From: Oscillospiraceae bacterium
GTDB taxonomy: Bacteria > Bacillota > Clostridia > Oscillospirales > Acutalibacteraceae
NCBI GenBank assembly: GCA_028683785.1
Contig: JAQUHC010000003.1
Span: 1 to 42,832 of the forward strand
Reading direction: 5' to 3'
Length of the DNA: 42,832 nt
In this document: positions 7,807 to 41,990 of the stretch, one piece after another
Numbering within the stretch: position 1 is the first letter of the stretch
Layout of the letters: each line of letters opens with the position of its first letter
Notes under the pieces: model-generated
The model's database searches: none
Told to the model about the DNA's origin: nothing
Seen by the model: the letters and a program-made list of their open reading frames with translations, nothing else
Position numbers and translations under genes: made by a program

Positions 7807-7984
7807 AAGATAGAAATGAATCCCCACGCTACACTGATATGGATATTATATGCGAATAAGTATTGTTTTCCAATACAAAAGAATAAAGCCCAGCGTTTGC
7901 TAGACTTATTAAGAAGCCGAAAACAAACAGCATGAATAAAATAATTGACAAACGGAGAAAATAAAGTATAATTATGAAAACAGT

Positions 7985-8250
7985 AAAAAACTTTGACGGG
8001 AAGAGTAGCCCTGAGTTGGCGTTACAGAGAGCCGGAGGTTGGTGCAATCCGGTACGGCAATCGGGAGGAAGAACATCCCCGAGTTTCTGTCTGAACGCGC
8101 ATGATATATGCGTTATTAGGCGCAGGCGTATGACGGCACGTTACAGCCGTAAACCATAGGTGATTGAGTGGGCTGCAGGTTCAGCCTATTTGGGTGGTAC
8201 CGCGGAAGTTAGCCTTTCGTCCCAGTTTTAGGGATGGAGGGCGTTTTTAT
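7985..8250 (+). promoter_or_regulatory. T-box leader upstream of aspS-gatC/gatAB
   Basis: Stem I signature acagagagccggaggttggtgcaatccggtac, T-box tgggtggtaccgcgg (8191-8205), terminator gccttt...agggc with T run. Apparent specifier ctgAACgcg (AAC 8094-8096). Confidence 0.9.
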
Positions 8251-10538: not shown

Positions 10539-11981
10539 ATGAAAGACAAAATCACAAAAATGACCGTCTCGGAATTGAGCGGCCATCTTGCAGCAAAGGA
10601 TATTTCGGCCGTCGAGGCGGCGACAGCATATATAGATAATATCAATTTGGTTGACGGCGATGTGGGGGCGTATATACGGGTGACCGCCGAGCGGGCGTTG
10701 GAGCAGGCCGCCGAGGTTGACCGTCTTCGCGCCGCGGGGGAGAAATTGTCACCTTTAGCGGGCATTCCCGCCGGCATAAAAGATAACATTTGTACAAATG
10801 GTATAAATACCACCTGCGGCTCAAAAATGCTTGAGAACTTCATTCCGCCCTATAACGCAACCGTAATAGATAGGCTGGAGCAACGGCATGTTGTTATGCT
10901 GGGCAAGCTCAATATGGATGAATTTGCAATGGGCTCGACCAATGAATACTCGTATTTCAAGCCGGTACACAACCCGCGTGACCTTTCACGGGTTCCGGGA
11001 GGCAGCTCGGGAGGCGCGGCGGCGGCGGTTGCAGCCGATGAGGCGGCGTTTACCCTGGGCTCGGATACAGGCGGCTCGGTGCGACAGCCGGCGGCATTGT
11101 GCGGGGTTGTGGGTATCAAGCCTACCTATGGTGCTGTTTCCAGAAACGGATTGGTTGCATTCGCGTCCTCCCTCGACCAGATAGGGCCGCTTACCAAAGA
11201 TGTACGGGATTCTGCAATGGTTATGGAGGCGATTGCAGGCCACGACGCGGGGGATGCCACCTCGCTTGATTATGATTGGCCGTCATTTACCCAAGGTATT
11301 GAGCAGGGCGTGCAGGGGCTTCGGATAGGATTGCCAAAAGAGAATTTCGGGGATGGTATCGCGGCCGAAGTAAAGGAGGCTATCCTTAAAGCCGCGACGG
11401 TTTATGAAAAACTCGGCGCAAAGGTCGAGGAGATATCATTGCCGAATATTAATTATGCACTGCCCGCCTATTATGCAATCTCATCCGCCGAGGCTTCGTC
11501 AAATCTTGCGCGGTTCGATGGTATAAAATACGGCTTCCGTGCCGATGTCGACGGTGATATTGATGATATTTACAAGGCCACAAGAAACGAGGGCTTCGGG
11601 ATGGAAGTCAAGAGCCGCATAATTCTGGGCAACCATGTTTTAAGCGCCGAAAACTATGACGCGTACTATAAAAAAGCCATGCAGGTCCGCACCTTGATTA
11701 TCGAGGACTTCAATCGGGCGTTTGAGCATTATGATTTTATCCTGTCGCCTGCCACCCCCACAACGGCATTTAAATTGGGTGAAAAGCACCGAGATCCCTT
11801 GGTAATGTTCAGATGCAATGTGTATACCGTGCCTTCGAATATTGCCGGAATACCCGCGCTGTCCCTGCCCTGTGCCGCCGATTCTCAGGGGTTGCCGATA
11901 GGAATGCAGCTTATTGGCAAATCGTTCAGCGAGCCTCTGCTTTACCGCGCTGCTTACGCTTTTGAGCAAAGGGGGAATTAA
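10539..11981 (+). CDS. gatA: Asp-tRNA(Asn)/Glu-tRNA(Gln) amidotransferase subunit A
   Basis: Amidase signature with GIPAGIKDNICTNG, PGGSSGGAAAAVAADEAAFTLGSDTGGSVRQPAALCGVVGIKPTYG. Confidence 0.97.
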   Translation: MKDKITKMTVSELSGHLAAKDISAVEAATAYIDNINLVDGDVGAYIRVTAERALEQAAEVDRLRAAGEKLSPLAGIPAGIKDNICTNGINTTCGSKMLENFIPPYNATVIDRLEQRHVVMLGKLNMDEFAMGSTNEYSYFKPVHNPRDLSRVPGGSSGGAAAAVAADEAAFTLGSDTGGSVRQPAALCGVVGIKPTYGAVSRNGLVAFASSLDQIGPLTKDVRDSAMVMEAIAGHDAGDATSLDYDWPSFTQGIEQGVQGLRIGLPKENFGDGIAAEVKEAILKAATVYEKLGAKVEEISLPNINYALPAYYAISSAEASSNLARFDGIKYGFRADVDGDIDDIYKATRNEGFGMEVKSRIILGNHVLSAENYDAYYKKAMQVRTLIIEDFNRAFEHYDFILSPATPTTAFKLGEKHRDPLVMFRCNVYTVPSNIAGIPALSLPCAADSQGLPIGMQLIGKSFSEPLLYRAAYAFEQRGN

Positions 11982-11983
11982 TA

Positions 11984-13423
11984 ATGGTATCACAAAGCAC
12001 TATTCAAAAATATGAAATGGTTATCGGTCTGGAGGTTCATGTAGAGCTGAAAACCAAAACAAAAATATTCTGCAGCTGTCCAACCGATTTCGGTGCTCAG
12101 CCCAATACCCAGTGCTGTCCTATATGCACCGGGATGCCCGGAACACTGCCGGTATTAAATCGTCAGGTGGTGAATTTCGCGGTCAAAGCGGGGCTTGCCA
12201 CCAACTGCAAAATTGCCTCGGATACAAAACAACACCGTAAAAATTATTTTTATCCCGACCTGCCGAAGGCGTATCAGATATCACAGTATGACCTGCCTTT
12301 ATGCGAGCATGGTTATCTGGATATTGAAACCGGCAACGGGACAAAACGTATCGGCATTACCAGAATCCATATCGAGGAGGATGCCGGAAAGCTGGTTCAT
12401 CTTGAGGGAGAGGGAACGCTTATCGACTGTAACCGCGGCGGGGTAGCGCTTATCGAAATAGTATCCGAGCCGGATATCCGCTCGGCAGAGGAGGCTAAGG
12501 CATACCTGCAAAAACTGCGTGCCGTTATTCTCTATACCGGGGTGTCGGACTGCAAAATGAACGAAGGTTCTTTCCGCTGCGATGTCAACCTTTCGGTTAG
12601 GAAAAAGGGCGAAAAGAAGCTGGGGACACGCGCCGAAATGAAAAACATCAACAGCTTTCAGTTTGCGGTCAAGGCCATCGAATATGAGTTTGCCCGTCAG
12701 GTGGAGGCTTTGGAATCGGGGGAGAAACTGGTTCAGGAAACCCGCCGCTTTGACCAGAACACCGGCAAAACCTATTCGATGAGGAGCAAGGAAAATGCCG
12801 ACGATTATCGGTATTTTCCCGACCCCGACCTGCCTATAATAGAAATAACCGATGACGAGCGGAATGCGTTAGGGGCGGAAATACCCACCCTGCCCGATGC
12901 GCGAAAGGCAAAATATATAGAGGAATACGGCTTGACAGCCTATGCCGCCGAGCAGCTTACCATCCAGCGGGAAATTGCCGATTATTTTGAAAAAGCAGCC
13001 GAACTGACCTCCCATCCCACCCTTGCGGCAAACATGATATTAAGCGATGTATCCCGCCTGTTGCAGCCGGACGAAACAGAAATTCCGATTAAGCCGGAGC
13101 ACTTTGCCGCCGTTGCACAGATGTCAGGGGATGGCAGAATAAACAGCGGAACCTGTCGTTCATTGGTTCAAATGCTGTGGGAAAAGGATATCGACCCGGA
13201 AATCATTGTGCGTGAAAAAGGACTGGAGCAGATTAATGATGAGGCGGTGCTGTCCGGTTTTGTGAAAGAGGTTATTGCCCAACAGCCAAAATCGGTCGCC
13301 GATTATAAGGCGGGCAAAGCCGCCGCCTTCCAATCGCTGATAGGTCAGGTCATGAAAAAGACCTCAGGCCGCGGCAATCCGGTAAAAATCAAGGAATTGA
13401 TGACCGAATTGCTTGAGGATTAA
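11984..13423 (+). CDS. gatB: Asp-tRNA(Asn)/Glu-tRNA(Gln) amidotransferase subunit B
   Basis: MVIGLEVHVELKTKTKIFCSC, KNYFYPDLPKAYQISQYDLPLC, DYRYFPDPDLP, C-terminal YqeY-like tail. Confidence 0.97.
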   Translation: MVSQSTIQKYEMVIGLEVHVELKTKTKIFCSCPTDFGAQPNTQCCPICTGMPGTLPVLNRQVVNFAVKAGLATNCKIASDTKQHRKNYFYPDLPKAYQISQYDLPLCEHGYLDIETGNGTKRIGITRIHIEEDAGKLVHLEGEGTLIDCNRGGVALIEIVSEPDIRSAEEAKAYLQKLRAVILYTGVSDCKMNEGSFRCDVNLSVRKKGEKKLGTRAEMKNINSFQFAVKAIEYEFARQVEALESGEKLVQETRRFDQNTGKTYSMRSKENADDYRYFPDPDLPIIEITDDERNALGAEIPTLPDARKAKYIEEYGLTAYAAEQLTIQREIADYFEKAAELTSHPTLAANMILSDVSRLLQPDETEIPIKPEHFAAVAQMSGDGRINSGTCRSLVQMLWEKDIDPEIIVREKGLEQINDEAVLSGFVKEVIAQQPKSVADYKAGKAAAFQSLIGQVMKKTSGRGNPVKIKELMTELLED

Positions 13424-41494: not shown

Positions 41495-41571
41495 CGGGAT
41501 GTGGCTCAGTTTGGTAGAGCGCTTGGTTTGGGACCAAGATGCCGCAGGTTCGAATCCTGTCATCCCGACCA
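41495..41571 (+). tRNA. tRNA-Pro (TGG)
   Basis: 77-nt cloverleaf, anticodon loop TTTGGGA, encoded CCA. Confidence 0.94.
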
Positions 41572-41608: not shown

Positions 41609-41734
41609 TGCCTATTTCTTTGTTTACTGCGGGTCAAATTTTGATCAATTATGCGTGATTAAAATATACTATTTTATTACTGTTGACAAATTTTAAAAAT
41701 AGACATATACTTATAAAAATTGAATACAAAAAAG

Positions 41735-41990
41735 CTATGATAAGAAATAGTAAGCATTTTGGATTTTCAGAGAGAAGACGGTTGGTGTAAGTCTTTATTG
41801 AAAAGATGCTGAACCCATCTTTGAGCTGTAAGCCGAAAATGTAGTAAGCTTTACCGGGTTCTCCCGTCATAGAGAAAAGTATTAGATTGTATCTTGTACT
41901 TAAAGAGTGCGGATTTTTCCGAATTTAGGTGGTACCACGGACTTTGAATAGTTCGCCCTAAATAGCCTTTGGGTTATTTAGGGCTTTTTT
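41735..41990 (+). promoter_or_regulatory. T-box leader upstream of proS
   Basis: Stem I ttcagagagaagacggttggtg..., T-box aggtggtaccacgg (41927-41940), terminator gccctaaatagcctttgggttatttagggctttttt. Candidate specifier CCG (41833-41835). Confidence 0.9.

Follow-up and report, generated by a model that had tools for sequence, protein, structure and literature searches.

The leader of the aspS-gatC/gatA/gatB operon in the window, i.e., the whole 42,832-nucleotide stretch of DNA that was analysed, is very probably a transcriptional T-box for tRNA-Asn(GUU) placed on an operon for the transamidation route to asparaginyl-tRNA, with AspRS and GatC here fused into one protein. The T-box, the position and the triplet of its specifier, the operon, the presence of GlnRS in the genome and the non-detection of asnS were computed, and the features of the locus are collected in Table 1. 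The assignment to tRNA-Asn is carried by the covariance-model score of 121 bits, by the location of the triplet AAC in the +0 frame and by the retention of AAC across orthologous leaders whose Stem I covaries. On the 3' side of the T-box the genes follow in the order aspS-gatC fusion, gatA and gatB, and the search of the assembly for gatB gave one match.

Table 1. Features of the T-box leader and of the operon behind it, in positions of the window
Feature	Positions	Strand	Basis
Putative sigma-70-like promoter	7945-7972	+	TTGACA 7945-7950, spacer of 16 nt, TATAAT 7967-7972; read from sequence
T-box leader (RF00230)	7984-8227	+	cmscan, 121 bits, gathering score 93, E 2e-26
Specifier loop, 3' strand, GAA-G-AAC-A	8068-8075	+	Rfam alignment; flanked by covarying Stem I helices; unpaired in the fold
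Overlapping GAA (Glu), −1 frame, most likely incidental	8071-8073	+	G also in 23/25 asnS/asnA T-boxes
Specifier codon AAC (Asn), standard frame	8072-8074	+	Loop position; 12/12 rows of alignment A2; tRNA-Asn(GUU) in the genome
Stem II hairpin, containing AAC 8094-8096	8090-8120	+	Rfam alignment and RNA fold
Antiterminator with T-box bulge, UGGN = UGGU 8195-8198	8190-8223	+	Rfam alignment; sequence
Intrinsic terminator hairpin (GCCTTTCGTCCC / GGGATGGAGGGC) and T run	8212-8248	+	Read from sequence; competes with the antiterminator
aspS-gatC fusion, 693 aa	8283-10364	+	AspRS residues 1-584, GatC 603-693; NCBIfam NF001750 817 bits, TIGR00135 gatC 72.6 bits
gatA	10539-11981	+	TIGR00132 612.5 bits
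gatB	11984-13423	+	NF004012 647 bits

The leader covers the RF00230 model over its full length (model positions 1-219), which, together with the family matches of the genes, bears out the claim of an earlier note on this DNA that a T-box precedes the operon. In TBDB the preferred frame, +0, consists of nucleotides 2-4 from the end of the specifier loop (PMC7778990); in the loop of the aspS leader AAC takes this frame and GAA takes the −1 frame. The genome encodes a tRNA-Asn(GTT), which matches the Stem I specifier. In the predicted ensemble the loop is mostly unpaired, with probabilities of 0.61-0.99. Moreover, the helices of Stem I covary among 12 related leaders, where 90% of the cells are paired and 8 pairs have both sides changed, with AAC invariant in the loop; none of 500 shuffles was as high, and slid versions of the structure were 29-53% paired, noting that the Stem I structure was written partly from the same 12 sequences and thus the unslid version is favoured. 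At the 3' end, the hairpin followed by a T run is placed to compete with the antiterminator, and the UGGU of the T-box bulge pairs with the discriminator G73 of tRNA-Asn by wobble only, a type of pairing between UGGN and discriminator that TBDB accepts (PMC7778990).

Based on these elements, we infer that the leader would bind tRNA-Asn and would act in the following way. The anticodon of uncharged tRNA-Asn would pair with the AAC specifier and its 3' GCCA end with UGGU, with G-U at the discriminator, so that the bound tRNA would stabilise the antiterminator and the terminator would be blocked. RNA polymerase would then read through into aspS-gatC, gatA and gatB. The fused AspRS would load Asp onto tRNA-Asn, and GatCAB would amidate the Asp-loaded tRNA to give Asn-tRNA(Asn).

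The gene content of the genome is consistent with such an operon. The earlier note had raised asnS and glnS together, of which the former was undetected and the latter is present. For asnS the best match in the assembly reaches 107 bits, which is at paralogue level against a cut-off of 342.6, and because the assembly (185 contigs) is only 88.9% complete the absence of the gene is provisional. Nor was asnS detected in a 98%-complete congener (G005) that has the same fusion and T-box; in three other congeners (G006, G008 and G010) asnS occurs together with the fusion, which, with the incomplete assembly and the wobble between UGGU and G73, we count against the tRNA-Asn reading. The search of the genome for asnB gave only fragments below the cut-off. 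With asnS undetected, one gatB and AspRS fused to GatC, the proposal of the earlier note that the operon serves Asn-tRNA(Asn) formation by transamidation fits. Its further suggestion of a role for Gln is not supported, since GlnRS is encoded (glnS, 705.1 bits, cut-off 425.8) and a Gln role is therefore not needed for the operon.

A second, unfused AspRS lies on another contig (C107), and reads RDLG where the fused AspRS reads RDMG. Met occupies this position in all of the fused AspRSs examined (the one in the window and the relatives), while Leu is found in E. coli AspRS and His in the Asp/Asn-type AspRS of PDB 4wj3. Judged by these residues, the Leu/Met difference fits a division of labour between the two AspRSs, and it suggests that the fused AspRS may be the enzyme charging tRNA-Asn. 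As a separate observation, nearly all genomes in a genus search aimed at C. acetobutylicum gave a single AspRS match.

It could alternatively be considered that the leader is a two-codon T-box that senses both tRNA-Asn through AAC and tRNA-Glu through GAA, by analogy with that of C. acetobutylicum. We regard this as unlikely. The earlier note had proposed the second codon together with the first, and the GAAC overlap does exist in the true specifier loop (8071-8074). Moreover, the overlap is present in 17/18 T-boxes of fused aspS-gatC or close homologues, a set to which relatives were added and whose members are orthologues and thus not independent, and a precedent has been described from experiment (PMC4052509). 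However, given AAC, one base, G, suffices to make GAA, and therefore the chance of GAA in a single case is about 1 in 4.

We therefore consider the base before AAC in other T-boxes. The pattern GAA-N-AAC-A was used to find T-boxes in genomes from the order (147) and from the class (392), and each T-box was classed by the downstream gene; asnA was provisionally labelled by its likeness to a single reference ORF, itself named from sequence, and asnB provisionally by the N-terminal sequence. Because AAC, a single spacer base and particular spacings were set in the pattern, the search is informative solely on the base preceding AAC. In other Clostridia the same AAC T-box also precedes unfused aspS-gatCAB (L148-L153, L163-L165, L186 and L187). 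The G is present before AAC in 13/15 asnS T-boxes and in 10/10 asnA T-boxes, i.e., in 23/25 of these T-boxes in Clostridia, which have no link to Glu, as against just 2 of the 11 T-boxes of unfused aspS-gatCAB, the others having T (8) or A (1). Before asnB it was found in 1/5. If the Glu frame were selected in transamidation operons, the opposite tendency would be expected: with 23/25 for asnS/asnA and 7/16 for the pattern-sampled gat-linked T-boxes the difference runs against the two-codon idea (Fisher p = 0.001, which owing to shared ancestry is no more than indicative). Even among the fusions, 1XD42-1 has A before AAC and reads AAA in the −1 frame. The overlap is thus weak evidence for a second tRNA, and judging from these counts the GAA is most likely incidental.

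Some further observations concern the leaders themselves. Two fusion leaders (L077 and L078) have C rather than A after AAC (GAAGAACC), and a hisS-aspS operon (L183, genome G275) has a T-box-like GAATAACA match. In Anaerotruncus massiliensis the fusion has a second T-box (L068:3912-4159) some 4 kb upstream, and at four aspS-gatC fusions of uncultured Clostridia MAGs from the Lapin bins (L071, L072, L073 and L076) no T-box motif was seen within 500 bases upstream.

The GlnRS status and the discriminator also bear on sensing of tRNA-Glu. A two-codon T-box would be expected where GlnRS is lacking and GatCAB is needed for Gln-tRNA, while the genome here has GlnRS. Of the gat-linked T-box genomes whose GlnRS status is clear, G precedes AAC in 11 of the 20 that have the enzyme and in 5 of the 6 that lack it, so that at these numbers no clear link between GlnRS absence and the G is seen. 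The exception among the latter is the one-contig, 100% complete genome G328, which has T before AAC and reads UAA in the −1 frame. As for the discriminator, UGGU would form a Watson-Crick A-U pair with A73 of tRNA-Glu, as against the G-U wobble with G73 of tRNA-Asn, which favours the two-codon T-box. UGGU was considered as a signature of tRNA-Glu and rejected, because it is usual in asnS/asnA T-boxes (23/25), including those of genomes with tRNA-Asn G73 (G399, G412 and G334). Taken on its own, the claim that the overlapping GAA is functional, with tRNA-Glu sensed beside tRNA-Asn despite GlnRS, is in our judgement improbable; if it is true, dual Asn/Glu sensing would be common among clostridial Asn T-boxes, since the same loop precedes asnS and asnA.

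The remaining two alternatives fare worse. Sensing of tRNA-Asp might be supposed from AspRS being the product of the first gene, and it is very improbable: the specifier loop contains no Asp codon, neither GAC nor GAU, and AAC is kept in all of the related leaders aligned. This agrees with the earlier note, which had taken the cognate tRNA to be Asn and not Asp; the Asn assignment is supported, and was reached from the wrong element. That note had read the specifier from another AAC triplet, at 8094-8096, about 22 nt too far downstream, and we give this placement almost no chance, because Rfam puts the triplet in Stem II, in the conserved GAA(A) opposite AGUA, where relatives have CGAAC, CGAAA or CCGAAA as against the invariant AAC of Stem I. 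In the fold A8094 is paired, and A8095 and C8096 lie in a small internal loop of Stem II. The proS "CCG" that had served as the guide is in Stem II as well, both segments aligning to its consensus cccGAAauuuuaAGUAggg. In the proS T-box (41728-41963) the specifier is CCC, at 41814-41816 in gaa-CCC-atc, and the genome encodes a matching tRNA-Pro(GGG) at another place; just upstream of this T-box, at 41495-41571, sits a gene for tRNA-Pro(UGG).

The leader in the window, which we take as a T-box for tRNA-Asn, can be compared with known systems. The C. acetobutylicum operon is said to consist of AspRS and GatCAB. The two-codon T-box that the earlier note had mentioned is real: a passage of PMC4052509 describes, from Saad 2013, a T-box of the transamidation operon that binds tRNA-Asn and tRNA-Glu, and PMC7778990 cites it as an experimentally studied case of an alternative frame. 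The likeness to the leader here is in the Asn specifier overlapping GAA and in the tRNA-dependent amidation operon, as described in PMC4052509 and in keeping with the title of Saad 2012 given in PMC4206432. The differences are that here AspRS and GatC form one fused protein, that GlnRS is in the genome, and that dual binding, reported for C. acetobutylicum, is here a hypothetical reading. With the clostridial asnS/asnA T-boxes the leader shares the loop GAA-G-AAC-A and UGGU, each found in 23/25 there; it differs in that those T-boxes control AsnRS or aspartate-ammonia ligase and this one a transamidation operon. The fused protein resembles the bifunctional AspRS/GatC of NF009460 (PRK12820) in having AspRS followed by GatC, with a match over residues 5-685; its score of 649 is below the family cut-off of 1379, which under the curated threshold leaves the protein outside the family.

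The present analysis contributes a family of operons that carry an AspRS-GatC fusion and are under probable control by a tRNA-Asn T-box. It also gives a caution: because GAAC is usual in clostridial Asn T-box loops of any function, the overlap alone should not be taken as a sign that two tRNAs are sensed. Should the loop itself confer dual binding, the asnS and asnA leaders with GAAGAACA would be expected to show it too.
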